35,341 nucleotides of DNA from a virus: the IMG/VR virus record IMGVR_UViG_3300037852_000181, positions 1 to 35,341 of that record, one strand, 5' to 3'. The position numbers and the translations under genes are program-made. The notes beneath the pieces are model-generated. The model saw nothing but the letters and a program-made list of their open reading frames with translations. It made no database searches and was not told the origin of the DNA. Below are positions 4,966-17,322 of this stretch, in pieces (the first letter of the stretch is position 1; each line of letters begins with the position of its first letter).

Positions 4966-4981
4966 TTTCTCCTCCTGTTGT

Positions 4982-5036
4982 GAAGCACTAATGCTTCTTA
5001 CTGCGGTAAGCTAGTTACCGCAGTGTAGAAACATTA
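4982..5036 (-). promoter_or_regulatory. Intergenic hairpin element copy 1
   Basis: First (leftmost) of 21 copies. Inner stem 5001-5009/5015-5023; SD-proximal GAAGC/GCTTC pair 4982-4986/4993-4997; outer arm ends at 5036, overlapping the stop of the ParB-like gene. Confidence 0.75.
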
Positions 5037-5867
5037 AACCACATTGCCAGACGAGGTAACCTCAAGCCTAGGAAAGGCCTCAGGTTTGGTACCCTGACTC
5101 TGCCACTTTAGTATTCGAAGTTCTTGACCGTTGAAAGCAGCGTTAGCCGCCTTGATCATCAAGGCGATGGTCATGACGGCGTCTTTTCGACTACCTTCAG
5201 CCGTGAAGTACATTCGTAGCCTGAAGAATGGGTCATTGATGCTGACACCAGCTGGGTTCTCCAGCGTGAATACCAGCCTCTCAGCCAATTCAGGGCTACG
5301 GTTAACAAGGACGTAGTAAAAGAACCCAACTAGTGAGGGGTTGGCGACACCACGTAGGTTTCGTACCCGTTCAATAGCACGCTCAATACCGGGGTTGTCC
5401 TGGTACATCAGTTCGATGTCTGAGTTTTCAATCCGGTTTGTAGGTTTGGCGTAGGTTTCAATAATGCCACGTTGCCACCTTAACAGCCATTGCAAGGCCG
5501 CTGAGGTATATTGGCGGTAGCGTGTGGCACCATGCAAGGCTAGCACGTCAGCACCGCTGCGTGGCTTGCGTAGGGTGTCAATGGTAGCGAAGGCGTCAGG
5601 TTCAATACCGTAAATTACTGCGGTTTTGATTGGCATTTTGGCTTCAATGACAGCCCAAAGACGGTGCTGGCCATCAAGGATCTCTTTGTTCTTAGAGAAC
5701 TTGATGGTATCACCGTTGAACTTCCACTTTCCATCGATGATCTGTTTTGAGATACGCTTGACGTGTTGGTCGTTAAGCGGCCGATTTAGGGTGTTCCGTT
5801 CCAACATCTCCATTGCCATTTCCGGCGTTAGGAGAATCACTTGCGGACTTGAAAGCGGCCCATGCAT
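5034..5867 (-). CDS. ParB-like DGQHR-motif protein (277 aa)
   Basis: The N-terminal third has the ParB-like core: LTPEMAMEMLERNTLNRPL, then GDTIKFSKNKEILDGQHRLW with the D-G-Q-H-R signature, then AVIYGIEPDAFATIDTLRK and a G-A-D-V-L segment. Phage proteins of this type are common and often called ParB-like nuclease-domain proteins; a DNA transaction or transcription role is the usual guess. The C-terminal 150 residues are helical. ATG 5867 is chosen because GGAGG lies 9 nt upstream; an ATG at 5912 has no such site. It still overlaps the upstream gene by 95 nt. Confidence 0.7.
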   Translation of the reverse strand: MHGPLSSPQVILLTPEMAMEMLERNTLNRPLNDQHVKRISKQIIDGKWKFNGDTIKFSKNKEILDGQHRLWAVIEAKMPIKTAVIYGIEPDAFATIDTLRKPRSGADVLALHGATRYRQYTSAALQWLLRWQRGIIETYAKPTNRIENSDIELMYQDNPGIERAIERVRNLRGVANPSLVGFFYYVLVNRSPELAERLVFTLENPAGVSINDPFFRLRMYFTAEGSRKDAVMTIALMIKAANAAFNGQELRILKWQSQGTKPEAFPRLEVTSSGNVV

Positions 5868-6339
5868 TCGAGAATTCCTCCATCCATTTCGCTGCTGCGT
5901 CGACATTTGCATTAACAGCTTTGATTCGAGTTGCGTTACTCCTGACTATAGAAATCACGTCATTGACGTCTGGCAGCCTTGATATGGTAAGTAAAGCTGG
6001 GCCGAACGTACCCCATAAATCTGCGTTAGCACGTACTTTACTTCGATATCTTTCACTTTGGGCACTGTTTCGGCTTCGCATGCCTTTAAGTTGCTCAGGT
6101 GTCATACGCTTCTTGATGTTGTCAGCAAGGTTGCGAAGCCCAACTTCTGCATTGAGCCCTAGTGATAGTTCAGCTGCTGTTCCATATTCAAGGACAATTC
6201 TTGCTTGTGTCACAGTAGAACGTGAGATGCCTTTGGCTAGAGATTCTTCAACAGCCGTTGTTGCCCCAGGATTTTTGATTAGGGCAGAGGCAATATCCAA
6301 GGCTATCTTGGCCGCTTCTTGCATTCGTTTTGATGTCAT
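5773..6339 (-). CDS. Hypothetical, possible DNA-binding partner of the ParB-like protein (188 aa)
   Basis: Residues about 30-80 (AVEESLAKGISRSTVTQARIVLEYG, TAAELSLGLNAEVGLRNLADNIKKRM) resemble an HTH followed by the helical segment of ParB-related phage regulators. The C-terminal third is helical, ending in a Gly/Asn-rich tail. The tail-coding part overlaps the ParB-like gene by 95 nt in another frame. The ATG at 6339 follows AGGAGGAG. It is the gene directly after element copy 2. Confidence 0.6.
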   Translation of the reverse strand: MTSKRMQEAAKIALDIASALIKNPGATTAVEESLAKGISRSTVTQARIVLEYGTAAELSLGLNAEVGLRNLADNIKKRMTPEQLKGMRSRNSAQSERYRSKVRANADLWGTFGPALLTISRLPDVNDVISIVRSNATRIKAVNANVDAAAKWMEEFSNAWAAFKSASDSPNAGNGNGDVGTEHPKSAA

Positions 6340-6353
6340 ATCTCCTCCTATTT

Positions 6354-6402
6354 GAGCGTTTGATGGCTCACCACAACAGCCCGTAGGCTGTTGGACGTGA
6401 AC
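6354..6402 (-). promoter_or_regulatory. Intergenic hairpin element copy 2 (divergent)
   Basis: Inner stem CAACAGCC/GGCTGTTG with loop UACG on the minus strand. The outer arms differ in sequence from other copies (ATAGTTCAC with GTGAGCCAT) yet still pair at 8 of 9 positions. SD-proximal pair is GAGC/GCTC. Confidence 0.7.
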
Positions 6403-7619
6403 TATCCGTAGACGTTAGAAATGTGAATACACTGCCCAAATGGGGCTCGCGATGATAGGCGCTCAAAGTCATGATCTTGACAGTAGACTGCCCAGAGCAT
6501 TGGGCAACCGGGGTCTTCACCAAAGTCATTGACTTCCAAGTCCGTCAAATAGATAACGCAACTGGCATCGGGAACATTTGCTTGCAGCCATTTGAAGCTA
6601 TTGCTGAAAGCAGTACCACCGCCTCGGTAGTGACCAGCTGTCACGATGTCACCTCGGTAGTAAGTATCCACGTGATGAACATCGGTGTCAGCGTAAACCA
6701 CCGTGATCATGTCAGCAGTTCCTTCGTCTAGCGCACCAGCTACTTCACTGACCATTTGTCGGCAAAGTTCGAAGCTGATGGAGCCTGATATATCAACGAA
6801 GAAAACTAAGTGTTGGAGCCGATCAGGTATAGATCCTGGTAATAGTGCACCAATAGACATACTGCGTCGGCTTAGCCTTGCCCAACTGATTTCCCTAGAA
6901 AGGGATTGATCAATGAAGCGATGGGTTTGCTCACGCCAAGAGATCTTTGGCTTTTTCAGGTACTCAATGAGCTTCTGGAGTGAGCCGGGGATGTGCCCCG
7001 CATTGTTACCAGCCGCAACCTGCACCGCAATTCGCACTGCGGTTTCCCAAGTCTGACTGGCTTCACTTTGTTTGCCGGGCGTAGGTGAATCTATAACCCC
7101 ACCGCAACCACCGGGATCATTACCAGAACCGATGTTGATGACAATCTCGGTAAACGGTAGCTTATCGTAGATGGTTTCAGTGTTCATGTTTTCGAATTGG
7201 GCATCGTATAGATAACCCGTAACACCTTTGTACTTGGGATCACCCATCATATCCACGCTGATAGGATCACCGGGCAGTTTGAAGCCTGCCTTGATCAGAT
7301 CAGAGTTGATGACGAAATCACCAGCCATGTTCCAAATCATGGGATTGCGTGATCCACGCCGTGAAAAGTGTTGCAAGCAACAATGTTCCACTTCATGGGC
7401 CACTACAGCTTCACACTCTTCATCATCAATTTTGTGAACAAAGTCAGGTGAATAGAAGAGGTTGATACCGTCAACCGCCATGGTAGTGATCTCTCCAAGA
7501 CCGTTTTCCTCGGTTGCCTCAACCAACTTGAGTTGAAGCGCTAGGAACCCAAAGAAACCATTACGCACAAGCATGTTTGTACGCGCACTGATAATCTTAT
7601 TTCTTGCAGCTCTATCCAA
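6402..7619 (-). CDS. VWA-domain / metallopeptidase-like protein (DUF2201, COG3864 type; 405 aa)
   Basis: The N-terminal domain has a zincin motif HEVEH (75-79) and the family segment WNMAGDFVIN (96-105). The C-terminal VWA-like domain begins near 268 with VFFVDISGS (272-280), the D-x-S-x-S metal site, and a later TDLE segment. Proteins of this layout are encoded with MoxR AAA+ ATPases, as here (8674-9708), and the pair is thought to act as a chaperone or remodelling system; the substrate is unknown. The start is TTG 7619, 5-6 nt after GGAGGAG. Protease activity is not proven by the motif alone. Confidence 0.85.
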   Translation of the reverse strand: MDRAARNKIISARTNMLVRNGFFGFLALQLKLVEATEENGLGEITTMAVDGINLFYSPDFVHKIDDEECEAVVAHEVEHCCLQHFSRRGSRNPMIWNMAGDFVINSDLIKAGFKLPGDPISVDMMGDPKYKGVTGYLYDAQFENMNTETIYDKLPFTEIVINIGSGNDPGGCGGVIDSPTPGKQSEASQTWETAVRIAVQVAAGNNAGHIPGSLQKLIEYLKKPKISWREQTHRFIDQSLSREISWARLSRRSMSIGALLPGSIPDRLQHLVFFVDISGSISFELCRQMVSEVAGALDEGTADMITVVYADTDVHHVDTYYRGDIVTAGHYRGGGTAFSNSFKWLQANVPDASCVIYLTDLEVNDFGEDPGCPMLWAVYCQDHDFERLSSRAPFGQCIHISNVYG

Positions 7620-7635
7620 TTAACTCCTCCTGTTT

Positions 7636-7686
7636 GGTAAATTACCTAAAAGTAGGCCGATGCAGAAGGTGGTAACTGCATCGGCC
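7636..7686 (-). promoter_or_regulatory. Intergenic hairpin element copy 3 (atypical)
   Basis: Keeps the architecture but not the sequence: inner stem GGCCGATGCAG/CTGCATCGGCC (7655-7665/7676-7686) and an SD-proximal hairpin GGTAA/TTACC (7636-7646). The outer helix is not evident. A second inverted repeat, TTGTGCCT/AGGCACAA, lies just beyond at about 7688-7726. Confidence 0.55.
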
Positions 7687-7731
7687 CTTGTGCCTCGCGC
7701 GGGTTATGAGCCTTACAAGGCACAAACTCAA

Positions 7732-8076
7732 TTAGCGAACTTCAAATGAGATGCGTTCGTCAATGTCATCACGGAGGTACTTGCTGTAGGTCACGAAGTC
7801 AGCTTCCTTAAACTCAGCTGCTTGGAACCGTTCAACAGGTACCAGCTTAAGAAGTGCCTTGAACATGCCACCCAATCGGGTACCTTCCTTGTGCTTCAGC
7901 TTGGTTCTGACTACTTTCTTGACATGATCGTCAATAGTTTTGCAAGCCTTGGCAGTAGGTTTTAGCCGGGCAGCCAAGTCAATGAGGTCTGGTTCTGACA
8001 TTGATTCCAGGTCTTCAACGAAGTCTTCAAGGATAGCAGTCAGGGTAGTCAAGTCGGTTTGCTGTGCTTTCTTCAT
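7732..8076 (-). CDS. Hypothetical protein (114 aa)
   Basis: Mostly helical and charged (TLTAILEDFVEDLESM, LIDLAARLKPTAKACKTIDDHVKK), ending in a beta-rich segment. The start is set at ATG 8076 (MKKAQQ), 5 nt after the upstream stop; a longer frame overlaps that gene without a ribosome site. It lies between the VWA and MoxR genes, so it may belong to their module, but that is inference from position. Confidence 0.6.
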   Translation of the reverse strand: MKKAQQTDLTTLTAILEDFVEDLESMSEPDLIDLAARLKPTAKACKTIDDHVKKVVRTKLKHKEGTRLGGMFKALLKLVPVERFQAAEFKEADFVTYSKYLRDDIDERISFEVR

Positions 8077-8081
8077 GACTG

Positions 8082-8441
8082 TTACTTCGCCAATGGCAGG
8101 ACTTTGTCTTCTATGAATTCGATAACTTGTTTCCAAGTTTTATGGTCGTCATTTAGTCTTGCAAGCGATGCTTGTGTGGTCCATGCAAGCCCGAATGATA
8201 CATTATCCTTTAGCATGCCTGCACCTTGACCTCCTGATGGATATTTCTTACCCGGAGGTATAGGTATTAACCGACTGAAACTGTCAGCCTTCCAATAGCA
8301 TCCATGCTGATCCGCCCAGACTCCAAGACAGCAAAATCGCTCGCCATCTGGTGAAACCAAAGTCCTTTTGGTTTTTTTGTAGGATCCGTCTTTTAGATTG
8401 CGGATCCATTTCAAGACGTCTTTGCGTAGTAGTTTGGCCAT
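8082..8441 (-). CDS. Conserved phage protein with FCCLG motif (119 aa)
   Basis: The pattern W...L..G.Y.....L....G..FCCLGVWADQHG near residues 11-48, followed later by LARLNDD and a helix, is familiar from a widespread tailed-phage hypothetical family whose function is not known to me. The ATG at 8441 is chosen because CAGGAGGAG lies just upstream, next to element copy 4; the longer frame would run through that element. Confidence 0.65.
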   Translation of the reverse strand: MAKLLRKDVLKWIRNLKDGSYKKTKRTLVSPDGERFCCLGVWADQHGCYWKADSFSRLIPIPPGKKYPSGGQGAGMLKDNVSFGLAWTTQASLARLNDDHKTWKQVIEFIEDKVLPLAK

Positions 8442-8460
8442 TTGTGACTCCTCCTGTTTT

Positions 8461-8518
8461 GAAGTGCCACTGTTGGCGCTTCTCACAAGCCTGCGTACAG
8501 GCTTGGACAGAAGCGTCA
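8461..8518 (-). promoter_or_regulatory. Intergenic hairpin element copy 4
   Basis: Inner stem CAAGCCTG/CAGGCTTG (8486-8493/8498-8505), loop UACG on the minus strand. The SD-proximal hairpin is extended: GAAGTGCC with GGCGCTTC. Its outer arm reaches the stop of the 52-aa membrane gene at 8516. Confidence 0.7.
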
Positions 8519-8674
8519 CATATTTAGATAGCCTATTATCAACACGACTGCGGTGAATGCATCTATTGCTAGGAACTTTGCAAGCTTTCGCCTATCTCCA
8601 TTAGCTATGCTTACACTGTTTCCCATCATCATAGTCATTGTGATAACGAAGGCTACTATTGGGAATATTTTCAT
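8516..8674 (-). CDS. Small membrane protein, two TM segments (52 aa)
   Basis: MKIFPIVAFVITMTMMMGN forms a first hydrophobic segment and FLAIDAFTAVVLIIGYLNM a second, with a short basic turn (NGDRRKLAK) between them. The start overlaps the MoxR gene stop by 1 nt (TAATG), a strong sign of coupled translation, and the stop falls in element copy 4. A small hairpin membrane protein fits, possibly holin-like, but there is no endolysin nearby to support that. Confidence 0.6.
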   Translation of the reverse strand: MKIFPIVAFVITMTMMMGNSVSIANGDRRKLAKFLAIDAFTAVVLIIGYLNM

Positions 8675-9708
8675 TACAGCCTCATGGAGGTGTTTTCCCT
8701 AGCCCACTTTCCAAACGTATTAGTTTCACAAAGCAATGGATCACGCTTTGAGCCGTCAAGGATAACCACGGTAGCCATGTCAGCACCAAAATTATCCCGC
8801 TTGATGTACTTGTAGATCTGAGGAAAGTTCTCAGGTGTCAGTTTGCGAGCCAATAGACTCGTTAAAGCATAACGAGATGCTGGTTCTTCAGGTATGGGTG
8901 TCTTGTTGGGGTTAGCCAAGATCTCTTCAATGTCAGGTAAATCAACTGCCCTGAAGTACATCTCAACTTCCGTTGCTGCACCCTCACCAACGATGGCACA
9001 TAAAGCTTTGAATCGCATGTCAGGGGTTAAGCCAAACATAGGTGATGCCATTTCCCAAGAACGTGGTGTTGGGAATGCTAAGTTGGTTGCGCCCTCCATT
9101 GAATGGATAAGGTTAGGCCTGAACTTCATAAACCCGATTAACAACGGGTTGATGTCGTGCAGGTTGGCCCACGCTCGCCAAATGTCTGCATCAGCTCTGA
9201 TATGGATGTGAGCAAAGCGGTTGGCTAGCGCAGTTGAAATAGACACCGCAGCTGCTCTATCCTCACGGCGGTTGCCAGCGGCTGTAGGCCACCATCCAGG
9301 TGGTAGCTTGTACTCACCAATCTGGCGTTCAAGTACCACACGGTAGATGCAGGATTGCAGGTTCTTGTTGGCATCACTCAATTCATCAAAGGCAATGATG
9401 CCACGTGGCCCATCCCGTTCTGCATTGGGCCAGTACTCCGCACGCAACCACGTTGCTACACGCCTTTCAAGATCCGGCACAGGGATACCTGTAAGGTCTT
9501 CAGGCAGCATAGTGCCCACGCGGACATCAATGAAGCCTGACTTGATTGGATCTTCATCAGCGAGTTGCCGCATGATGGCTGATTTGCCAACACCCGGTGC
9601 ACTGTGGAAGTAAGTTGGGATGTTATGTTCCCTGAACACCTTGGCCAGATCCTTGGCCTCTTCGATGTTCATGGTTTTAATTTCAGTCGGTCCTGTAGTG
9701 TCAGTCAA
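8674..9708 (-). CDS. MoxR-type AAA+ ATPase (344 aa)
   Basis: Walker A SAPGVGKS (36-43), Walker B GIIAFDEL (103-110) and a sensor-1-like TAAGNR (142-147) identify an AAA+ ATPase of the MoxR/AAA_5 group. Such ATPases work with VWA proteins, and the VWA/metallopeptidase gene is about 1 kb downstream in the same operon. Together they probably form an ATP-driven remodelling machine. The start codon is TTG (9708) after GGAGGAG with 7-nt spacing; the same rare start is used by the VWA gene. Element copy 5 precedes it. Confidence 0.9.
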   Translation of the reverse strand: MTDTTGPTEIKTMNIEEAKDLAKVFREHNIPTYFHSAPGVGKSAIMRQLADEDPIKSGFIDVRVGTMLPEDLTGIPVPDLERRVATWLRAEYWPNAERDGPRGIIAFDELSDANKNLQSCIYRVVLERQIGEYKLPPGWWPTAAGNRREDRAAAVSISTALANRFAHIHIRADADIWRAWANLHDINPLLIGFMKFRPNLIHSMEGATNLAFPTPRSWEMASPMFGLTPDMRFKALCAIVGEGAATEVEMYFRAVDLPDIEEILANPNKTPIPEEPASRYALTSLLARKLTPENFPQIYKYIKRDNFGADMATVVILDGSKRDPLLCETNTFGKWARENTSMRL

Positions 9709-9725
9709 TTGTTACTCCTCCTGTT

Positions 9726-9775
9726 GAAGCTAGGATGCTTCTCACTGCCCCTATAAGGGGCAGGACAGAAACATC
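9726..9775 (-). promoter_or_regulatory. Intergenic hairpin element copy 5
   Basis: Inner stem CTGCCCC/GGGGCAG (9745-9751/9757-9763). The outer helix is GATGTTTCT/AGAAGCATC, a G-C for A-U compensatory change compared with most copies. Confidence 0.75.
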
Positions 9776-10142
9776 ATTCTTCATCAACTTCATCAACCTC
9801 AACTGTTCTGCGGGTCTTTTTCTTGATGTTGAGGTTATGTGAGGCATTTATAATGGAATGCTTTACCTCATGAAGATGCCTGAAATGTTGACGAGCATAA
9901 TAGTCATTACTGTTGCCGACGCGGGTCTTGGTGTTGGCAATCCTCACTTCATATTCGTCATGAGTATCAGGTTCATGGTCATTACCAGGAACCGTATATT
10001 TGTAGACAAATGCTGATTTGGTCGGTGATACTTGAACTATCCAAGCTGGGGTTATTTCAAGTTCAAGTGGCAGATCCAGGGTAAATGGTGTTGACTCTAC
10101 TGCTTCAGCAGTAACAGTAGCATTCTTAACTTTACGCGTCAT
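9774..10142 (-). CDS. Hypothetical protein (122 aa)
   Basis: A short Lys/Thr-rich start is followed by a beta-rich middle (TPAWIVQVSPTKSAFVYKYTV, EYEVRIANT), a His-rich helix (RQHFRHLHEVKHSI) and an acidic end (EVDEVDEE). It overlaps the DUF3150-like gene stop by 1 nt (TAATG) and precedes MoxR, so it is probably part of that module. Function unknown. Confidence 0.6.
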   Translation of the reverse strand: MTRKVKNATVTAEAVESTPFTLDLPLELEITPAWIVQVSPTKSAFVYKYTVPGNDHEPDTHDEYEVRIANTKTRVGNSNDYYARQHFRHLHEVKHSIINASHNLNIKKKTRRTVEVDEVDEE

Positions 10143-11026: not shown

Positions 11027-11040
11027 TTATCTCCTCCTTG

Positions 11041-11092
11041 GAAGCGTAATTGCTTCTCACTGGCCTCCGCAGAGGCCAGGACAGAAACATTA
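11041..11092 (-). promoter_or_regulatory. Intergenic hairpin element copy 6
   Basis: Inner stem CTGGCCTC/GAGGCCAG; minus-strand loop UGCG closed by C-G, a UNCG tetraloop. The outer arm ends at the stop of the lipoprotein gene. Confidence 0.75.
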
Positions 11093-11275
11093 CTCTTGGT
11101 GAGGATCAATGAAGCCTTCGCCCCCACGGGCACTACCCATGAATCGGGGATCTTGTACTGTACCTCTCATGTTGGCGTGCGGTGCACGAGCCAAGCCCAT
11201 TGAACCAGAAGGTCTGCCATTAGAGGCACAACCCATCAGTACGCCAGCAAGTAGAATTAAGGACAAGTACTTCAT
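11090..11275 (-). CDS. Small lipoprotein (61 aa)
   Basis: MKYLSLILLAGVLMGCASNG is a lipoprotein signal with lipobox L-M-G-C; the mature part would begin at Cys 15 and is short, Gly/Arg-rich and probably unstructured. Such a protein would be anchored in a Gram-negative envelope. It could be a small outer spanin or a superinfection-exclusion lipoprotein; the sequence does not decide. ATG 11275 is 6 nt after GGAGG and preferred over the ATG at 11281. Confidence 0.7.
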   Translation of the reverse strand: MKYLSLILLAGVLMGCASNGRPSGSMGLARAPHANMRGTVQDPRFMGSARGGEGFIDPHQE

Positions 11276-11289
11276 TATCATCCTCCGTT

Positions 11290-11341
11290 GAAGCAAAAGT
11301 GCTTCTCACAGCAGCTCGTAAGCTGCTGGACAGAAACACTA
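11290..11341 (-). promoter_or_regulatory. Intergenic hairpin element copy 7
   Basis: Inner stem CAGCAGCT/AGCTGCTG with minus-strand loop UACG. The outer helix AGTGTTTCT/AGAAGCACT changes a pair in both strands relative to the common form. Confidence 0.75.
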
Positions 11342-11461
11342 AAACAACCAGCATTCTTCATGTTCACCAACAGGTTTTGCTGGTGAACAACGCAGATAGA
11401 AATACCAACCTGAGGCAATGCGGTATTTCCAGACCACACCCTTTATGATCGTTACGATCAC
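11339..11461 (-). CDS. Very small protein, GTG start (40 aa)
   Basis: MIVTIIKGVVWKYRIASG then an aromatic stretch (WYFYLRC) and an acidic end. The GTG start overlaps the upstream stop by 1 nt (TAGTG) and the TAG stop lies in element copy 7, the same arrangement as other small genes here. The hydrophobic start could associate with the membrane. Function unknown. Confidence 0.55.
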   Translation of the reverse strand: MIVTIIKGVVWKYRIASGWYFYLRCSPAKPVGEHEECWLF

Positions 11462-11892: not shown

Positions 11893-11907
11893 AGTTTTCT
11901 CCTCCTT

Positions 11908-11958
11908 GAAGCTAAATGCTTCTCACTGCCACTCGTAAGTGGCAGGACAGAAACATTA
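11908..11958 (-). promoter_or_regulatory. Intergenic hairpin element copy 8
   Basis: Inner stem CTGCCACT/AGTGGCAG with minus-strand loop UACG; identical stem to copy 15. The stop of the 49-aa gene forms its 5' edge. Confidence 0.75.
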
Positions 11959-12105
11959 GCCCGCATCACGGCCTTCATAGTGCTCGGTTTTGTTCTTGCG
12001 TTCGGTGACTTCTACACCTCGCCAGTAACCTTGCCAGTAGCCTATCCAGTAAACACCCACACCAAGCAGGGTGCCTACTGCAACAGCTAGAAATTGGTCA
12101 CTCAC
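11956..12105 (-). CDS. Small single-pass membrane protein, GTG start (49 aa)
   Basis: MSDQFLAVAVGTLLGVGVYW is a transmembrane segment followed by an aromatic repeat (WIGYWQGYWRG) and a charged tail (VEVTERKNKTEH). The GTG start overlaps the preceding gene by 8 nt. The layout (N-terminal anchor, short charged tail) is common among phage membrane miniproteins of unknown role. Confidence 0.55.
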   Translation of the reverse strand: MSDQFLAVAVGTLLGVGVYWIGYWQGYWRGVEVTERKNKTEHYEGRDAG

Positions 12106-12298: not shown

Positions 12299-12312
12299 AT
12301 TCTCCTCCTGTT

Positions 12313-12363
12313 GAAGCTGAATGCTTCTCACAGCAACCCATAGGTTGCTGGACAGAAACATTA
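12313..12363 (-). promoter_or_regulatory. Intergenic hairpin element copy 9
   Basis: Inner stem CAGCAACC/GGTTGCTG, minus-strand loop UAUG. Followed by the ribosome site AACAGGAGGAGAA. Confidence 0.75.
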
Positions 12364-12474
12364 GCTATTGACTTTATCAGCAATATCAGCGATGCGATTT
12401 AATGCTTTGCTGATTTCGTATGCCCCCATATAGACAGCAAAAGCTATTAGGAGCATTCCTATTATCATATCCAT
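12361..12474 (-). CDS. Small single-pass membrane protein (37 aa)
   Basis: MDMIIGMLLIAFAVYMGAYE is a transmembrane segment followed by a short helix (KALNRIADIADK). The start at 12474 overlaps the stop of the 34-aa gene (TGATG), and its stop lies in element copy 9. A longer in-frame start exists but would overlap the 34-aa gene completely. Confidence 0.55.
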   Translation of the reverse strand: MDMIIGMLLIAFAVYMGAYEISKALNRIADIADKVNS

Positions 12475-12578: not shown

Positions 12579-12579
12579 G

Positions 12580-12774
12580 TCAGATATCCTTCTGATAGGT
12601 CTCATTGATGGGGCTGGGCAATAGCACCGATGCCAGATTGTAGCCCTCATACCATTGTTTTATGGCACAGATAGGGCCAGACTCTAGGTACGGGTTCTTG
12701 GAACGTGGGATGCCCTGTTCACGGGCTCTAATGCCTGCTGACCACGCGATCTGTTCAATAGAACCATTGTGCAT
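12580..12774 (-). CDS. RMF/CrpP-like small protein (64 aa)
   Basis: The pattern AWSAGIRAREQG (about 10-21), NPY (27-29) and W-Y-E-G-Y-N-x-A (41-48) matches the G..A...G....NPY......W..GY..A layout of small phage proteins annotated as ribosome modulation factor/CrpP-like. RMF dimerises ribosomes in Gammaproteobacteria; phage relatives may act on ribosomes or be unrelated in function. ATG 12774 follows GGAGGAG next to element copy 10. Confidence 0.55.
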   Translation of the reverse strand: MHNGSIEQIAWSAGIRAREQGIPRSKNPYLESGPICAIKQWYEGYNLASVLLPSPINETYQKDI

Positions 12775-12788
12775 TTTCTCCTCCTGTC

Positions 12789-12840
12789 GAAGCTGAATGC
12801 TTCTCACAGTAGCCCGTAGGCTACTGGACAGAAGTATTCA
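12789..12840 (-). promoter_or_regulatory. Intergenic hairpin element copy 10
   Basis: Inner stem CAGTAGCC/GGCTACTG with minus-strand loop C-UACG-G, a classic UNCG tetraloop. Outer arm is GAATACTTCT, with one A-C mismatch. Confidence 0.75.
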
Positions 12841-12945
12841 GATCATGATGATAAGAATCAGCATGGCTGATAGGTACAATGACCATCTGAAGAACCTATT
12901 ATCGTCACCCATGGCTATGAGTAGTCGTCTGAATTGCTTACTCAT
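12838..12945 (-). CDS. Very small membrane protein (35 aa)
   Basis: MSKQFRRLLIAMGDDNRFFR is polar and basic, then WSLYLSAMLILIIMI is a C-terminal transmembrane segment that ends the protein: a tail-anchored layout. The start overlaps the 43-aa gene stop by ATGA. A longer in-frame version (64 aa) would overlap that gene almost completely. Confidence 0.5.
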   Translation of the reverse strand: MSKQFRRLLIAMGDDNRFFRWSLYLSAMLILIIMI

Positions 12946-13073
12946 GGGTACACGAAGATAGTGAGAGGTTCTGAAGACATGCTGATCAGCCAAAGGATGA
13001 TACTTGCTGATCCAATCAGCATCAGCATCCATCCAATGCCCGGCATTGGATCAGGTTGATGATTTTCATCCAT
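12942..13073 (-). CDS. Small single-pass membrane protein (43 aa)
   Basis: MDENHQPDPMPGIGW is an acidic N-terminus; MLMLIGSASIILWLISM is a transmembrane segment; the end is SSEPLTIFVYP. The start has GAGG about 8 nt upstream and lies 3 nt after the stop of the 45-aa gene; the end overlaps the next gene by ATGA. Confidence 0.55.
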   Translation of the reverse strand: MDENHQPDPMPGIGWMLMLIGSASIILWLISMSSEPLTIFVYP

Positions 13074-13076
13074 GGC

Positions 13077-13214
13077 TTACCTCAGGCTGAATCCCATCAG
13101 AATTGTCAGGGCAAGAAGGCAAACAGCCACGATGCCAATGATGATGTTGTCCCTTGTGTTGTTGGGGTCGCCAATGTCTTCCCCAAGCAGTTCCTCTCGA
13201 TCCATATCTGGCAT
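13077..13214 (-). CDS. Small single-pass membrane protein (45 aa)
   Basis: An acidic N-terminus (MPDMDREELLGEDIGDPNN) is followed by a transmembrane segment IIIGIVAVCLLALTILMGF and a short end SLR. A strong AAGGAGGAG ribosome site and element copy 11 precede the ATG, making the reading frame secure despite its size. Confidence 0.65.
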   Translation of the reverse strand: MPDMDREELLGEDIGDPNNTRDNIIIGIVAVCLLALTILMGFSLR

Positions 13215-13227
13215 TTTTCTCCTCCTT

Positions 13228-13280
13228 GAAGCTTAATGCTTCTCACTGCCCTCATTACTGAGGGCAGGACAGAAACATTA
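13228..13280 (-). promoter_or_regulatory. Intergenic hairpin element copy 11
   Basis: Inner stem CTGCCCTC/GAGGGCAG extended by an A-U pair over minus-strand loop GUAA, a GNRA tetraloop. Confidence 0.75.
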
Positions 13281-13529
13281 GTTCCAGTCACGCCACTGTT
13301 CGTCGTCGATCCTGAACTGGTTCTCAGCACGCTTCTTGATTGCGTTGACTTCCCGCTGTGCATTGGCTTCAGTGCGGCGTCTGATTGCTGCTTGGATTTC
13401 AGCATTGACTTGGTCTTCATCGATGGCCTTTTGGTACTTGGCATCACGTCGATCATACCAAGCTGTGAGGCCATAGACCCCACCGATAACGACTGCGGCC
13501 AACACAATGGTTCCAATTAGACCTTCCAT
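13278..13529 (-). CDS. Membrane-anchored coiled-coil protein, possible inner spanin (83 aa)
   Basis: MEGLIGTIVLAAVVIGGVYG is an N-terminal anchor; the rest (WYDRRDAKYQKAIDEDQ..., RRRTEANAQREVNAIKKRAE) is a charged, probably coiled-coil helix. That layout fits inner spanins (Rz) of Gram-negative phages, and a small lipoprotein is encoded at 13938-14102, but the two are separated by two genes and no lysis gene is near. ATG 13529 follows AAGGAGGAG. Confidence 0.55.
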   Translation of the reverse strand: MEGLIGTIVLAAVVIGGVYGLTAWYDRRDAKYQKAIDEDQVNAEIQAAIRRRTEANAQREVNAIKKRAENQFRIDDEQWRDWN

Positions 13530-13546
13530 AGTTCTCTCCTCCTTAT

Positions 13547-13597
13547 GAAGCGTTAGCGCTTCGCAGAAGGGCACGTGTGCCCCTCGCCGAAACGTTA
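13547..13597 (-). promoter_or_regulatory. Intergenic hairpin element copy 12 (divergent)
   Basis: Inner stem GGGCAC/GTGCCC. Outer arms AACGTTTCG and CGAAGCGCT pair at 8 of 9 positions despite changed sequence. Confidence 0.65.
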
Positions 13598-13786
13598 TAT
13601 TGTCGGATCAAGGATGAACAATAGGTTAAGCGCAAAGGCCACCTTGTCTTCATGGTCCGGTACGTAGTGGTGTGCAGTCAACACCACACAAGAAAAAGTA
13701 AAGAGCATTAGGCGGTAATGCGTCCTTTTGACCTTTATTCTCTTGATTGGCGGCAAGTGCACAGGCGAAAGTTTGAAGCCTTTCAT
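13595..13786 (-). CDS. Small membrane protein (63 aa)
   Basis: A basic N-terminus (MKGFKLSPVHLPPIKRIKVK) leads into two hydrophobic stretches (LMLFTFSCVVLTA and VAFALNLLFIL). The stop lies in element copy 12 and the start overlaps the 46-aa gene by ATGA, which supports this frame over the overlapping 74-codon frame at 13650-13874. Confidence 0.55.
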   Translation of the reverse strand: MKGFKLSPVHLPPIKRIKVKRTHYRLMLFTFSCVVLTAHHYVPDHEDKVAFALNLLFILDPTI

Positions 13787-13923
13787 CTGTGGTCGCTCCG
13801 TTTGTACTCGTCAACAAACAGTCTGGCGCGGTACGTTTTTGCCATTTCCATTTCGAAATCTTTGTTGATCCCAATCAGGTTGACAAAAATAGACAGCGTC
13901 ACACTCCATGTGAGGGCTCGCAT
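13783..13923 (-). CDS. Very small membrane-associated protein (46 aa)
   Basis: MRALTWSVTLSIFVNLIGIN is hydrophobic, then a charged helix (KDFEMEMAKTYRARLFVDEYK). AAGGCGG lies upstream; the start is 14 nt after the lipoprotein stop and the stop overlaps the next gene. Short anchor plus charged tail; role unknown. Confidence 0.55.
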   Translation of the reverse strand: MRALTWSVTLSIFVNLIGINKDFEMEMAKTYRARLFVDEYKRSDHR

Positions 13924-13937
13924 TGGCGCACCGCCTT

Positions 13938-14102
13938 TTACTCAGCGAGTTGCCTCGCAGCGGCTTGCTCATAGAGTTGTTCACGGATGGTTTGGGTTGA
14001 AGTCAGTTCAGCATGGATGTCTATGGCAGAGCATCCCATCACCAGCACTGATAGAATTACAAACCAAATTTGCCTATAACGGGCGAGTGGATCTTTTGGC
14101 AT
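13938..14102 (-). CDS. Small lipoprotein, possible outer spanin (54 aa)
   Basis: After a basic start (MPKDPLARYRQI) a hydrophobic segment WFVILSVLVMGC ends in lipobox V-M-G-C; the mature part of about 31 residues is polar and helical (REQLYEQAAARQLAE). Outer spanins are small lipoproteins like this, though usually Pro-rich, which this is not. AGGAGGAG and element copy 13 precede the ATG. Confidence 0.6.
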   Translation of the reverse strand: MPKDPLARYRQIWFVILSVLVMGCSAIDIHAELTSTQTIREQLYEQAAARQLAE

Positions 14103-14116
14103 TTCTCCTCCTGTCT

Positions 14117-14171
14117 GAAGCGATAGATGCTTCTTACTGCGCTGATTGCTCAGCGCAGTGTAGAAACATCT
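14117..14171 (-). promoter_or_regulatory. Intergenic hairpin element copy 13
   Basis: Inner stem CTGCGCTGA/TCAGCGCAG over minus-strand loop GCAA (GNRA). Outer helix AGATGTTTCT/AGAAGCATCT, ten pairs. No long gene ends at its 5' edge; the 119 nt beyond (14173-14291) hold only a weak 24-codon GTG frame. Confidence 0.7.
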
Positions 14172-14291
14172 GTGGGGCGCATGATTGTGGGTTGATGAAG
14201 TGCTAGTGATGCAGGATATTTCACGAGGTTAAGGCCCCGTTTTGCCTCTCCCTGCGCACTCCTAATTTACCCAACTAGCCGCAATGGCGCG

Positions 14292-14558
14292 CTAAGTTGA
14301 GAAGCCGTTTTGGCCGTGTACGCTAGGCAGGTCTTCTTGATGGGCCTTGGGTGATTCCAAGTCTTTTAGAGATTGATCAACCAGTGCCCTCACTTCTTCA
14401 ATAGAGTGAGCCTTGAAGCGAGTTGGTTGATCATTGAAGTACGCGCGATACATGCGCGTATGTCTGCCAGTAGCCTTGATGACGTATTGACCTTCAGGGA
14501 TGGTCAAGTAGGCTTCCTTGGTTTCAATCAAGGTTGCCCAACCGAATGATGTCGTCAT
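14292..14558 (-). CDS. Hypothetical protein (88 aa)
   Basis: A small soluble alpha/beta protein: MTTSFGWATLIETKEAYLTI, GQYVIKATGRHTRMYRAYF, then helix SIEEVRALVDQSLKDL. The start at 14558 overlaps the stop of the 30-aa basic gene by ATGA; the longer GTG frame is less likely. Function unknown. Confidence 0.6.
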   Translation of the reverse strand: MTTSFGWATLIETKEAYLTIPEGQYVIKATGRHTRMYRAYFNDQPTRFKAHSIEEVRALVDQSLKDLESPKAHQEDLPSVHGQNGFST

Positions 14559-14647
14559 TTGCGTTTCCACCTTTTGGTTAGTTTCTTGAGCCTGCGCTTG
14601 GCCTTCTTGGTGAGTTCCACCTTGAGGTACCACAATGGTAACTTCAT
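14555..14647 (-). CDS. Very small, strongly basic peptide (30 aa)
   Basis: MKLPLWYLKVELTKKAKRRL continues into a Lys/Arg-rich helix; about 13 of 30 residues are Lys or Arg, without acidic balance. It has its own AGGAGGAG ribosome site behind element copy 14 and overlaps the next start by ATGA. It could bind RNA or act as a translated leader coupling expression of the 88-aa gene. Confidence 0.55.
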   Translation of the reverse strand: MKLPLWYLKVELTKKAKRRLKKLTKRWKRK

Positions 14648-14664
14648 AATTTTCTCCTCCTGTT

Positions 14665-14715
14665 GAAGCTTAATGCTTCTCACAGCAGCTCGTAAGCTGC
14701 TGGACAGAAACATTA
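14665..14715 (-). promoter_or_regulatory. Intergenic hairpin element copy 14
   Basis: Same inner stem as copy 7 (CAGCAGCT/AGCTGCTG, loop UACG on the minus strand), followed by AACAGGAGGAGAA. Confidence 0.75.
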
Positions 14716-14805
14716 CTTAGTAGATCTCCATATAGCAGCGATGATCACCGCTGATATACAGATGCAGAATACACTGAATGCGACTGCGCCAGCTACATCA
14801 CCCAT
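14713..14805 (-). CDS. Very small membrane protein (30 aa)
   Basis: MGDVAGAVAFSVFCICISAV plus IIAAIWRSTK: essentially one transmembrane helix with a short basic end. AGGAGG is 4 nt upstream of ATG, it begins 9 nt after the DoxX stop, and its stop lies in element copy 14. Confidence 0.55.
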   Translation of the reverse strand: MGDVAGAVAFSVFCICISAVIIAAIWRSTK

Positions 14806-14814
14806 TGCTGCCTC

Positions 14815-15264
14815 CTAGAAGCTGATGATGTAGCTGTCCAAACTGTACGGCCCACCACCCATGAAGATCAGCGTTAGCAAGATGATGGCGTACATAACCT
14901 CAGGGAGGTACAGTACATCATCCACGTAGTCAGCACGATCAATAGGCTTCCATGCTGCAATGCGCTTCAAGCCATCGACTGCGGTTGCACCGCAACAGAT
15001 GATCAGAAGCCCAATTGAAGCAATTGGTGTCAAGAAACCCAGCATCAACGCAATGCCGCCCCAGAACTCACCCAATGGCACAAGCCAGCTGGCGAGCTTT
15101 GGATCAGGCACATCATCGACCACCATGGTGGAGTACACCACAGAGTGCCGTTGCTTGTTGAAGATCTTATGATAGCCGGAGATGCTGAAGAACACACCCA
15201 TGGTCACCCGCAAGATTGTGATGGCGACTAAGGGCAAGTTGAAGCCTAAGAATATAAATTCCAT
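14815..15264 (-). CDS. DoxX-family membrane protein (149 aa)
   Basis: Four hydrophobic segments (about 8-28, 56-76, 78-98, 120-138) with the DoxX-like signature ILRVTMGVFFSISGYHKIF, the central PLGEFWGGIALMLGFLTPIA and a late M-Y-A-I-I-L-L-T-L. DoxX proteins are small inner-membrane proteins in bacteria, some linked to thiol redox or respiratory complexes. One in a phage is unusual; it may change host membrane physiology during infection. ATG 15264 is set by GGAGGAG; element copy 15 precedes it. Confidence 0.75.
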   Translation of the reverse strand: MEFIFLGFNLPLVAITILRVTMGVFFSISGYHKIFNKQRHSVVYSTMVVDDVPDPKLASWLVPLGEFWGGIALMLGFLTPIASIGLLIICCGATAVDGLKRIAAWKPIDRADYVDDVLYLPEVMYAIILLTLIFMGGGPYSLDSYIISF

Positions 15265-15278
15265 TCTCTCCTCCTGTT

Positions 15279-15328
15279 GAAGCAAATGCTTCTCACTGCC
15301 ACTCGTAAGTGGCAGGACAGAAACATTA
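15279..15328 (-). promoter_or_regulatory. Intergenic hairpin element copy 15
   Basis: Inner stem CTGCCACT/AGTGGCAG, minus-strand loop UACG, nearly identical to copy 8. Confidence 0.75.
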
Positions 15329-15556
15329 TTCTTTGTCGGGCTTTACTTTATCTTGTTTGCCTCTCCAGGCACCAGCCAGTTCCCATTTTTCCTTATCGTA
15401 AGGATGATCCTCATTGGGCCAAATACGCACTACTATGACCTGTCCGGTCTTTTTGTTTCTTAAACGAGCGAAACCATTGGGAACATAGGTATCTGTGCCT
15501 GTTTTTGGTCCAGGTCCCCATGCACAAATGCTGTTCCTAATCTGATCATAGCTCAT
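15326..15556 (-). CDS. Hypothetical protein (76 aa)
   Basis: A small basic beta-rich protein (GFARLRNKKTGQVIVVRIWP, EKWELAGAWRGKQ) resembling a short beta-barrel or SH3-like fold, by eye only. No membrane segment. AGGAGGAG precedes the ATG. Confidence 0.6.
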   Translation of the reverse strand: MSYDQIRNSICAWGPGPKTGTDTYVPNGFARLRNKKTGQVIVVRIWPNEDHPYDKEKWELAGAWRGKQDKVKPDKE

Positions 15557-15575
15557 TTTATTTCTCCTCCTGTTT

Positions 15576-15630
15576 GAAGCTCAAGCGCTTCTGACGACGC
15601 TGGGTGTTACCAGCGTCGGGTAGAAGCTCT
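15576..15630 (-). promoter_or_regulatory. Intergenic hairpin element copy 16
   Basis: Inner stem CGACGCTGG/CCAGCGTCG, loop UAACAC on the minus strand. Outer arm AGAGCTTCT pairs AGAAGCGCT with one mismatch. Confidence 0.7.
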
Positions 15631-15633
15631 CAG

Positions 15634-16086
15634 CTATTGCATGATTTGGCAGTTGCCGCCGATGGTAGGCCAGCAATAGCTGCCAGTGTCGGAAGGTCCG
15701 TTTGGCTCAGTATGACCATGACCTTCGTGGCCACCATGACCACCAGAAGACCCGTGGCCACCATGTCCTTGACCACCGGGGCCATTGCCTGGACCGGCAG
15801 GACCACCATTGGGGCCACCGGGGCCACTAGGACCACCGGGAGAACCACCCATGCCGTTGCCGCCATGACCACCACCGGGACCACCAGCGGGGCCAGCGCC
15901 GATACCAGCACCAGTTCCACCACCCATGCCACCGTGACCACCGCCCATGCCAGCTCCTGCACCGCCACCAACGCCGCCACCGGCTCCACCACCACTCCCA
16001 TGAGCACTGGCGCTCCCGATTGACAGGGCAACGCTAGCGATCATGAAAGTGCCAGCGACCACTGACATTAGAAATCTATTAGACAT
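15634..16086 (-). CDS. Exported Gly-rich repetitive protein (150 aa)
   Basis: MSNRFLMSVVAGTFMIASVA with ALSIGSASA gives a Sec signal peptide, probably cut after ASA (residue 29). The mature part is about half Gly: GGG/GGH repeats, then collagen-like GPxGGP triplets (GGPSGPGGPNGGPAGPGNGP), then HGGHEGHGH, ending with a Cys pair in SYCWPTIGGNCQIMQ. The His-Gly stretches could bind metal. An exported Gly-rich protein is unusual for a phage and may act at the cell surface or periplasm. Start set by AGGGAGAATGTT. Confidence 0.65.
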   Translation of the reverse strand: MSNRFLMSVVAGTFMIASVALSIGSASAHGSGGGAGGGVGGGAGAGMGGGHGGMGGGTGAGIGAGPAGGPGGGHGGNGMGGSPGGPSGPGGPNGGPAGPGNGPGGQGHGGHGSSGGHGGHEGHGHTEPNGPSDTGSYCWPTIGGNCQIMQ

Positions 16087-16099
16087 AACATTCTCCCTT

Positions 16100-16153
16100 G
16101 AAGCATGATGCTTCAGACTGCACTGGATTGCTCCAGTGCAGGGTAGAAGCATC
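16100..16153 (-). promoter_or_regulatory. Intergenic hairpin element copy 17
   Basis: Inner stem CTGCACTGGA/TCCAGTGCAG over minus-strand GCAA (GNRA). Outer helix GATGCTTC/GAAGCATC is fully Watson-Crick. Confidence 0.75.
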
Positions 16154-16337
16154 AGTTCACGAGGTTGGGGTCGGCGAAAGCCTTGTCGAGTTCATCCAAG
16201 AACTCAACACAGTCTTCAGAGCTGGTACCACCGCGCGCCGTGTCTTCCAGCACATCGCTGGGGCTGACATGGTAGGGATGCACGCCGATCTTCGCTGAGA
16301 AGTTCATAAGCTTGTCGCTCACTTTGTGACTACGCAT
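16152..16337 (-). CDS. Small protein of the VHP paralogue trio (61 aa)
   Basis: The segment KIGVHPYHVSPSDVLEDTA with later SSEDCVEFLDELDKAF resembles EIMQVHPNRVTDDQARAACE...SQDQYDALMDFIE of the next gene, and more weakly the protein at 16993-17232. Three adjacent paralogues of about 60-80 aa suggest local duplication. All are acidic and helical. Function unknown. ATG 16337 is set by AGGAGGAG. Confidence 0.65.
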   Translation of the reverse strand: MRSHKVSDKLMNFSAKIGVHPYHVSPSDVLEDTARGGTSSEDCVEFLDELDKAFADPNLVN

Positions 16338-16355
16338 AGTATCTCCTCCTAGTTT

Positions 16356-16412
16356 GAAGCATGATTGCTTCTGACTGCACTGGGTTGCCCCAGTGCAGGG
16401 TAGAAACAATCA
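16356..16412 (-). promoter_or_regulatory. Intergenic hairpin element copy 18
   Basis: Inner stem CTGCACTGGG/CCCAGTGCAG over minus-strand GCAA (GNRA). Outer helix GATTGTTTCT/AGAAGCAATC, ten pairs, both strands changed. Confidence 0.75.
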
Positions 16413-16601
16413 GTTCGGCTGGCGCGCTTCAATGAAGTCCATCAGCGCGTCATACTGGTCCTGACTGATGGTGCCCTCTTCACACGCAGCGCGGGCCTGA
16501 TCGTCGGTCACCCTGTTGGGATGTACCTGCATGATTTCCGTGGCCTCCATGACGAGCGCCGGGATTTCAACATGTTTGGCAGGCTTTACTTTGCGTAACA
16601 T
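16410..16601 (-). CDS. Small protein of the VHP paralogue trio (63 aa)
   Basis: MLRKVKPAKHVEIPALVMEA then MQVHPNRVTDDQARAACEEG and TISQDQYDALMDFIEARQ. Same order of helix, V-H-P turn, Ala-rich helix, Gly and acidic helix as its neighbour at 16152-16337. ATG 16601 follows AGGAGGAG behind element copy 19. Confidence 0.65.
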   Translation of the reverse strand: MLRKVKPAKHVEIPALVMEATEIMQVHPNRVTDDQARAACEEGTISQDQYDALMDFIEARQPN

Positions 16602-16616
16602 GATAACTCCTCCTGT

Positions 16617-16669
16617 GGAGCGGAATGCTCCTTTGTGCGCTGATTGCTCAGCGCACCGTAGAAACATTA
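16617..16669 (-). promoter_or_regulatory. Intergenic hairpin element copy 19
   Basis: SD-proximal pair is GGAGC/GCTCC instead of GAAGC/GCTTC, and the outer helix keeps pairing (AATGTTTC with GGAGCATT). Inner stem GTGCGCTGA/TCAGCGCAC, GCAA loop. Confidence 0.75.
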
Positions 16670-16891
16670 CGGGGGTGGTTTGTCTTCTGGATTAAGGCAA
16701 TGAAGACATATTGTGTAACGATTTGGCCTATGGCGGCTTGGTTGCCAACCCACATCGTCACAGAAGTTACAGTTGATGACTATTTTCTTGGCCGTTTTGG
16801 CTGTTGGCGTGAAGATCTCAACATCTTTGCTCATTCGAGCCCTGATGGAGTCATAGTCAAACACGGCCTCTCTTGCTTTGTAGTCACTCAT
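16667..16891 (-). CDS. Small zinc-ribbon protein (74 aa)
   Basis: C-terminal half carries CNFC ... CLHC with about 18 residues between the pairs, and a basic stretch (QPSRHRPNRYTI) in the loop: a probable zinc ribbon that could bind nucleic acid. The N-terminal half is helical and charged. AAGGAGGGG precedes the ATG. Confidence 0.65.
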   Translation of the reverse strand: MSDYKAREAVFDYDSIRARMSKDVEIFTPTAKTAKKIVINCNFCDDVGWQPSRHRPNRYTICLHCLNPEDKPPP

Positions 16892-16908
16892 TTTCCCCTC
16901 CTTTGTTT

Positions 16909-16962
16909 GAAACAAAATTGTTTCTCACTGCACAGCTTTCACTGTGCAGGACAGAAACAATT
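16909..16962 (-). promoter_or_regulatory. Intergenic hairpin element copy 20
   Basis: SD-proximal pair GAAAC/GTTTC and outer helix AATTGTTTCT/AGAAACAATT, all Watson-Crick: clear co-variation. Inner stem CTGCACAG/CTGTGCAG over GAAA (GNRA) on the minus strand. Confidence 0.75.
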
Positions 16963-16992
16963 GCTTGTTAATGTCTTTACGCCGGCCGATGA

Positions 16993-17232
16993 TTAGTCTT
17001 CGTCTTCATCATCAACGTCGACGCTGTCGCCCTTGCTGTCACCGTCGACGTTGCCTTCGATGCCGAGTTCCTTCAGAAACTGCATGAACTCAGCGGCGTC
17101 GCCGTCATCGATGTTGCCAGCAGAGACTGCATTGGTGACCGCCGTTTCATCGAGCTGATGCGGTGCCACGTCGGAGCCGACTGCAATCTTGTTGGCAAGT
17201 TCTTGGATGCGTGGGGTTGCTGTAGCTGCCAT
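16993..17232 (-). CDS. Acidic protein related to the VHP trio (79 aa)
   Basis: Residues 7-56 (IQELANKIAVGSDVAPHQL, TAVTNAVSAGNIDDGDAAEF, MQFLKELG) follow the pattern of the two neighbouring paralogues. The C-terminus is an Asp/Glu tail (DVDDEDED) that could mimic DNA or bind basic partners. The gene has higher GC third positions than its neighbours. AGGAG precedes the ATG. Confidence 0.6.
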   Translation of the reverse strand: MAATATPRIQELANKIAVGSDVAPHQLDETAVTNAVSAGNIDDGDAAEFMQFLKELGIEGNVDGDSKGDSVDVDDEDED

Positions 17233-17269
17233 CTATCTCACTCCTGTTTTCACTTGAGGTTATCAAGTG

Positions 17270-17322
17270 GAAGCACAATTGCTTCACACTGCACCCCGTA
17301 GGATGCAGGCCTGAAACAATTA
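17270..17322 (-). promoter_or_regulatory. Intergenic hairpin element copy 21 (rightmost)
   Basis: Inner stem CTGCATCC/GGGTGCAG with minus-strand loop UACG; outer helix AATTGTTTCA/TGAAGCAATT, ten pairs. An extra hairpin CACTTGA/TCAAGTG (17251-17269) lies between this copy and the ribosome site, unlike other copies. Confidence 0.7.

Follow-up and report, generated by a model that had tools for sequence, protein, structure and literature searches.

Structured Elements in the Early Gene Array

The 35,341-base virus record IMGVR_UViG_3300037852_000181 from IMG/VR (GC 47%), analysed here over its whole length and referred to as the window, carries terminase and portal protein genes on its plus strand and a long array of small genes on its minus strand, and it raises the question of what is done by an intergenic element that recurs in front of these small genes. 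Each element consists of arm 1, which holds the stop codon of the upstream gene, an inner hairpin, arm 2, and a 5-nucleotide (nt) segment 3 adjoining the Shine-Dalgarno sequence (SD). Read on the minus strand, the recurrent order is stop codon, AAUGUUUCU, hairpin, AGAAGCAUU, a few nt, GCUUC, the SD GGAGGAG, and the start. The outer helix between the two arms is denoted 1:2, the helix between arm 2 and segment 3 is denoted 2:3, and the pairing of segment 3 with the SD is denoted 3:4. The elements constitute a real, widespread and undescribed RNA family with a well-supported structure. As for function, in a judgement that falls just short of an even chance, we propose that each element may act in cis as a four-segment RNA switch, which would link termination on one gene to translation of the gene that follows it.

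A covariance model restricted to the outer and inner helices (model R1, 47 sequences) was used in cmsearch and identified 20 copies in the window, from 4972-5041 to 17241-17326 (E 1e-9 to 1e-17). Every one of them is on the minus strand and lies directly 5' of an SD and a start. An earlier note on this DNA, made from the sequence alone, had described a family of 21 structured intergenic elements before minus-strand genes; the model gives one copy fewer, the place of the extra one not being stated. The same search revealed no copies in the late region and nothing comparable on the plus strand of the window, where the best E value was 0.005 and the strongest matches were antisense shadows of the copies. 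By reading of the sequence rather than by a tool count, the junctions in the array are of two kinds with few exceptions, i.e., the genes overlap or nearly touch, or an element separates them. Twelve window copies folded singly gave z-scores of -3.2 to -7.4 relative to dinucleotide shuffles, and none of 200 shuffles folded as well.

Since the model was partly built from window copies, their recovery alone proves little, and the weight of the evidence is carried by the controls and by the copies in other contigs. Model searches revealed 64 copies across seven contigs and more copies in 20 of 22 further contigs. In the DNA fetched for the analysis, 180 matches at E ≤0.02 come from at least 27 sources, the window included; some of these sources are near-duplicates (e.g., L188/L192 and L193/L206), and the matches include at least one antisense shadow (L194, plus strand). 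This leaves about 160 copies beyond the window in at least 20 other IMG/VR contigs, a tally that is a lower bound. Only records confirmed by the model were counted, because the TTTCG-class pattern matched many contigs by chance inside genes. Thus, the family proposed in the earlier note is borne out by the model, the shuffle controls and the other contigs, and the model searches recovered copies well outside the window.

Covariation of the Outer and Inner Helices

Among the 87 copies with ungapped arms, the outer helix is paired (G-U allowed) in 81-87 copies at its five innermost positions and in 73-85 copies at the next four, and 93% of all outer and inner cells are paired. Double-sided changes in these two helices occur in 349 cells against 97 (standard deviation 8.5) in shuffles of 91 copies from eight contigs, and in 628 cells against 187 (standard deviation 12) in the larger copy set. 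A tree-null test, which is our own R-scape-like implementation and not R-scape itself, gave E < 0.05 for all eight inner pairs, for the outer pairs 15-79 and 14-80, and for the internal-loop column pair 16-78; a second null, which keeps the changes of each column, supports both helices. The outer helix and the compensatory changes listed in the earlier note are therefore confirmed in the copies, and the covariation recurs in other contigs. The inner stems, mostly of 8-10 bp, vary freely in sequence and pair in 99.5% of cells. The apical tetraloops (n = 80) include 34 of the UNCG and 16 of the GNRA type, for which about 1 and 2.5 are expected, respectively, and this predominance argues that the unit works as RNA. 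Between the two helices lies a conserved asymmetric internal loop, mostly of 3 nt versus 2 nt, which is GUC/UG in 53 and ACA/CA in 31 of 143 copies, with several other types in the remainder.

These properties bear on the reading of the element as a DNA-level repeat, such as a recombination cassette, operator or promoter that shuffles small genes and has no RNA role. The 133 proteins encoded downstream of elements represent 77 families, and the 20 in the window represent 20 families; one copy per gene in front of so many families fits the border of a cassette. However, the inner stems vary yet pair, the UNCG and GNRA loops dominate, and both orientation and stop position are fixed. In addition, promoter-like sites, for which only the sigma-70 type was considered, number 14 versus 15 expected in the region, and terminator-like sites (stem-loop plus U run) are at chance level, with none on any element. 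We consequently disfavour the DNA-level repeat as highly improbable. Terminators and sigma-70 promoters were rejected as an explanation on the same chance-level counts.

A Competing Helix Next to the Shine-Dalgarno Sequence

Arm 2 holds a 5-mer, mostly GAAGC, and segment 3 is its complement, being GCTTC in 105 of the 115 copies with GAAGC. When the 5-mer differs from GAAGC, segment 3 is its exact complement in 17 of 28 copies and is GCTTC in none of them; when the downstream sequence of another copy was substituted in these 28 variants, the mean was 0.09 and the maximum 2 over 2000 trials. The observed combinations include TGAGC/GCTCA, GGAGC/GCTCC, GAAAC/GTTTC, GAAGT/ACTTC, TGAAC/GTTCA and AGAGC/GCTCT, and GATGC/GCATC was found in weaker copies from two contigs. 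Where arm 1 departs from exact complementarity to arm 2, segment 3 tracks arm 2 at 72 positions and arm 1 at only two, and segment 3 as a mere copy of arm 1 was rejected on this count. Double changes counted by column in 2:3 amount to 9 against 0.6 expected in shuffles of the 91 copies, and to 11 against 1.2 in the larger set. The resulting hairpin has 5 bp and encloses a loop that is mostly 5-6 nt long. At outer position 4, arm 1 and arm 2 form U-G in 67 of 87 copies, while the same base of arm 2 forms C-G with segment 3, so that 1:2 is the weaker partner at this point. The competing GAAGC/GCUUC helix of the earlier note is thus upheld by the own-complement test and the column counts, and it recurs in other contigs.

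Position of the Upstream Stop Codon

In 98 of 138 copies, the longest upstream frame ends with its stop codon at -9 or -10, counted from the end of arm 1, which puts the stop at the base of the outer helix; in 117 of the 138 it falls between -14 and -7. This agrees with the earlier placement of the stop in the outer 5' arm. The upstream genes that end in arm 1 are ordinary genes of up to 430 codons. A ribosome with a stop codon in its A site covers about 12 nt beyond it; at the observed spacing it would extend over arm 1 and into the internal loop on its 5' side, leaving the inner hairpin uncovered. Three segments, mutually exclusive 1:2 and 2:3 pairings with covariation for both, and a fixed stop position are established by these observations.

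Predicted Access to the Shine-Dalgarno Sequence

Folding was computed with ViennaRNA. The free RNA favours 1:2 (mean 0.77) over 2:3 (0.17), and the mean 2:3 pairing rises from 0.12, when only the sequence before arm 1 is kept single-stranded, to 0.79 when arm 1 is covered as well. Covering arm 1 lowers the computed cost of SD opening, which over 118 copies drops from 2.94 to 1.87 kcal/mol and for the window copies goes from 3.05 to 1.48 kcal/mol. Scrambling segment 3 abolishes this fall (3.30 to 3.25 kcal/mol, p 3e-12), and replacing segment 3 by A5 makes SD opening cheap in both states, which together suggest that segment 3 would hide the SD unless it is taken by arm 2. A second set of contigs, mostly outside the model, behaved similarly in the computation (3.11 to 2.29 kcal/mol versus 3.58 to 3.54 kcal/mol when scrambled, p 4e-5). 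The computed cost of SD opening is 2.94 kcal/mol with segment 3 and 1.78 kcal/mol without it, a difference that is driven by composition and is absent in the GATGC/GCATC copies. The fall in opening cost suggests activation by a terminating ribosome, the computed effect being modest. The fold reading of the earlier note holds for the helices and for the stop placement; what it missed is that GCUUC itself can pair with the SD, a pairing that provides a plausible output for the switch.

From sequence and folding we infer the following coupling mechanism. On an undisturbed polycistronic early mRNA, arm 1 would pair with arm 2 atop the inner hairpin, leaving segment 3 free to pair weakly with the SD, a state that leans towards OFF. 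A ribosome reaching the upstream stop would hold arm 1 in its mRNA channel and thereby open 1:2; the freed arm 2 would pair with segment 3, which would leave the SD, and a 30S subunit could then load on the next gene. Both the action of the ribosome in the cell and the net activation are presumed here from these predictions. If this is true, the element is a portable RNA part that can be attached to almost any gene and that couples genes over gaps of about 70 nt, which are too long for simple stop-start overlap; it would provide a natural tunable coupling element and a test bed for the reshaping of mRNA by ribosome termination. A wider claim, which we hold more tentatively than the switch itself and would put somewhat below an even chance, is that of a widespread, undescribed class of phage RNA switches whose signal is the terminating ribosome itself. 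The stop codon would be positioned for this ribosome to cover arm 1, and the next gene would thereby receive its ribosome binding site. There would be up to 20 copies along one operon, and the class would extend over several phage groups and possibly to isolated cyanophages. Whatever the mechanism, the copies, about 180 of them in over 20 virus contigs, form a structured RNA family that Rfam lacks and that merits a record.

Points against the Proposed Switch and Rival Explanations

Several observations weigh against the proposed switch. The computed gain of 1-1.6 kcal/mol is within the error of the folding model, and a scrambled segment 3 hides the SD equally, so that 3:4 rests on composition and not on specific pairing. 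Two GATGC/GCATC copies keep 2:3 with a segment 3 that is unable to pair with the SD, and they have no gain (1.90 to 1.81 and 2.51 to 5.87 kcal/mol); 3:4 is therefore not universal. The tree-aware null gives p ~0.08 for the 2:3 helix as a whole and significance for none of its pairs, because few lineages vary there; the support for this helix comes from the own-complement test at the level of the whole helix (17 of 28 versus 0.09). The 2:3 helix is thus better evidenced than the release of the SD that is supposed to be its output. Moreover, about 15% of copies, including 14108-14176 and 16900-16967, lack an upstream stop or have it more than 14 nt from where arm 1 ends, and copies with a remote stop would stay OFF under the switch model. 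Finally, the conserved asymmetry of the internal loop has no explanation in that model.

The main rival, which would account both for the persistence of 2:3 and for the copies that lack an upstream stop, takes the element to be a processing site of the RNase III type, an interrupted hairpin of 17-20 bp that is cut between early genes; cleavage would free arm 2 from arm 1, and 2:3 would become a 5'-terminal hairpin protecting the new mRNA near its SD. The architecture is suitable, with two stacked helices (about 9 and 8-10 bp), a small asymmetric internal loop, a stable tetraloop and a location between early genes. In the early mRNA of T7, RNase III sites are likewise interrupted hairpins between early genes, of a length similar to that of the element; the elements differ in that the stop codon keeps a set place in the outer arm and that another helix, exclusive of the outer one, can form by the SD. 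Processing gives no reason why the stop should lie at -9 or -10, as it does in 98 of 138 copies, and we consider it unlikely.

The stop position as well as both helices would also be explained if the element were an insulator or traffic control device, i.e., a hairpin that compacts the intergenic region and shields each SD from upstream sequence, with 2:3 forming only during ribosome termination to delay or shield the next SD briefly. The occurrence of elements before many unrelated genes is in line with such a role, which nevertheless appears distinctly unlikely to us, as folding predicts that the SD is more open in the 2:3 state, not less. The internal loop points in another direction, to a binding site for a phage or host protein (a translational repressor or activator, or an antiterminator) that reads this loop and for which 1:2/2:3 would be the read-out. 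The restriction of the loop largely to the GUC/UG and ACA/CA types and the significant covariation of column pair 16-78 favour such a site; given that several other loop types occur and that no candidate protein was identified, we regard it as improbable and place it below the insulator.

Comparison with Known Systems

Searches with Rfam 15 of the window and 10 other loci returned no family at gathering score for any element, in line with the view of the earlier note that no phage element of this design had been described, which holds for Rfam. The best weak hit, to freshwater-2 (24.2 of 49.9 bits, E 3.8), was rejected, being absent from the other element loci. Attenuators of the ermC type follow a four-segment logic. 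They resemble the elements in having competing, mutually exclusive folds in which a first segment is covered by an upstream ribosome that decides the exposure of the downstream SD, a parallel that for the elements is drawn from sequence and folding. In contrast to these attenuators, the elements involve neither a leader peptide nor a drug; a full gene that terminates in the ordinary way would be the trigger, there are up to 20 copies per genome, and 3:4 is weak. In ermC, ribosome stalling on the leader is thought to destabilise an inhibitory stem-loop (PMC5118997).

The nearest described design is that of the SAS and ESAS sites of cluster K mycobacteriophages (PMC3203893, PMC12699233), which, like the elements, occur in many copies per genome, lie immediately ahead of the starts of small non-structural genes, and combine inverted repeats with a variable spacer. 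Their authors judged these sites not to pair as RNA and read ESAS as DNA sites (PMC3203893); the 17-bp inverted repeats of ESAS lack RNA compensation, unlike the elements, which have strong compensation and loops of RNA type. The SAS motif GGGATAGGAGCCC had no match with three or fewer mismatches inside any element. Another likeness is offered by the promoter early stem-loops (PeSLs) of T4-type phages, which, as summarised in PMC4503421 (citing Arbiol 2010 and Comeau 2014), are promoter-terminator composites. As far as that summary describes them, they are stem-loop cassettes between early phage genes and possible borders of shuffled genes, as the elements may be; unlike them, the elements have no terminator-like site, and the region has no enrichment of sigma-70-type promoter sites.

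Neighbouring Genes and Candidate Distant Relatives

The window and several element-bearing contigs share an early module that encodes a protein of 290-310 amino acids (32% match to a DUF3150-annotated protein of Synechococcus phage MinM2), a phrog_1297 ATPase and a VWA protein (phrog_1314, Pfam DUF2201). IMG/VR protein searches with the VWA and ATPase proteins of the window returned no useful relatives; the DNA patterns of the element located contigs that the protein searches had missed. The isolated Planktothrix phage Pag-Yong1 (OL906435) has an early module as in the window. Several of its intergenic regions form hairpins in which a UGA stop lies at the outer arm, 7 of 9 outer positions pair, and the internal loop is of the 3/2 kind (GUC/UG, GCC/UG or ACC/UA); at least two of the hairpin copies also offer GATGG...CCATC as a possible 2:3. 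The search that gave these hairpins also returned matches inside genes and on the opposite strand, and we treat them as candidate distant relatives, not as members. The model itself yielded no convincing match in Pag-Yong1, Thermus phage phiFa, Bradyrhizobium phage ppBjS10J-1 or an Alteromonas phage (best E 0.02). Pag-Yong1 (L207) also carries a second repeated hairpin, GGTTCAGNCTGAACC, at or shortly after the stop codon in many gene junctions. Matches of an element query to Vibrio phages (H36 and H44) were rejected, as they did not match the model, and the sole bacterial genome match to the class I pattern (L028, an Acidobacteria metagenome-assembled genome) looks like a chance long hairpin in DNA.

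Coordinates of the Elements and Other Features

Table 1. Copies of the element in the window, with the anatomy of the reference copy.
Feature	Position	Strand	Evidence
Copy 1	4972..5041	-	cmsearch 62.3 bits, E 8e-14
Copy 2, GTTCAC/GTGAGC class, segment 3 GCTCA	6345..6411	-	50.5 bits; own complement
Copy 3, longer spacing between arm 2 and segment 3	8451..8523	-	cmsearch 54.5 bits
Copy 4, 5' of ATPase gene	9717..9781	-	cmsearch 65.6 bits
Copy 5, 5' of DUF3150-like gene (294 amino acids)	11031..11097	-	cmsearch 70.9 bits
Copy 6	11282..11346	-	cmsearch 67.2 bits
Copy 7	11899..11963	-	cmsearch 72.5 bits
Copy 8	12304..12368	-	cmsearch 72.8 bits
Copy 9	12780..12844	-	cmsearch 61.3 bits
Copy 10	13219..13285	-	cmsearch 73.8 bits
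Copy 11, TTTCG/CGAAG class	13536..13602	-	cmsearch 46.0 bits
Copy 12, no upstream open reading frame (ORF) of ≥30 amino acids ending at arm 1	14108..14176	-	56.0 bits; stop scan
Copy 13, reference copy	14656..14720	-	cmsearch 76.7 bits, E 2e-17
Copy 13, stop UAA of upstream gene, base of outer helix	14713..14715	-	sequence
Copy 13, arm 1, AAUGUUUCU	14706..14714	-	sequence; pair counts
Copy 13, inner 8-bp hairpin, UACG tetraloop	14683..14702	-	fold; covariation 8/8 pairs
Copy 13, arm 2, AGAAGCAUU	14672..14680	-	sequence; pair counts
Copy 13, segment 3 GCUUC, complements arm 2, SD pairing also possible	14665..14669	-	pair counts, own complement; fold
Copy 13, SD GGAGGAG	14654..14660	-	sequence
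Copy 14	15270..15333	-	cmsearch 69.8 bits
Copy 15	15567..15636	-	cmsearch 60.2 bits
Copy 16	16093..16159	-	cmsearch 55.6 bits
Copy 17	16346..16416	-	cmsearch 65.4 bits
Copy 18, GGAGC/GCTCC	16610..16674	-	cmsearch 46.6 bits; own complement
Copy 19, GAAAC/GTTTC, upstream stop 42 nt before end of arm 1	16900..16967	-	cmsearch 61.4 bits; own complement; stop scan
Copy 20, additional 7-bp hairpin between segment 3 and SD	17241..17326	-	54.0 bits; fold

The only other large structured gap noticed in the array lies at 7620-7732, before the VWA/DUF2201 gene, where two larger hairpins and an SD replace the element; this double hairpin is unmatched by the model and is not a member of the family. In contig L194, within 9323-9415 and 9814-9869, two elements carry a near-identical insert of about 25 nt, CAGGTTTTTGCTTTCCGCAAAATACCGG, one in its apical loop and the other in the stretch from arm 2 to segment 3; the insert resembles a small mobile hairpin that leaves the helices intact. 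Two element-bearing contigs match the Rfam small RNA (sRNA) Atu_At1 (RF02496, described from Rhizobiales; gathering score 60), namely L199 at 9580-9687 on the minus strand with 83.4 bits and L200 at 3876-3986 on the plus strand with 52.4 bits; this shows that Atu_At1 occurs in virus contigs and hints at an alphaproteobacterial host. Within the element array of the window, the minus strand has a DoxX-like membrane protein gene (14815-15285, Pfam PF07681) and a predicted ORF of 172 amino acids that is very rich in Gly and His and has no Pfam match (15634-16152). The right part of the window carries a tRNA gene on the plus strand (27848-27919).

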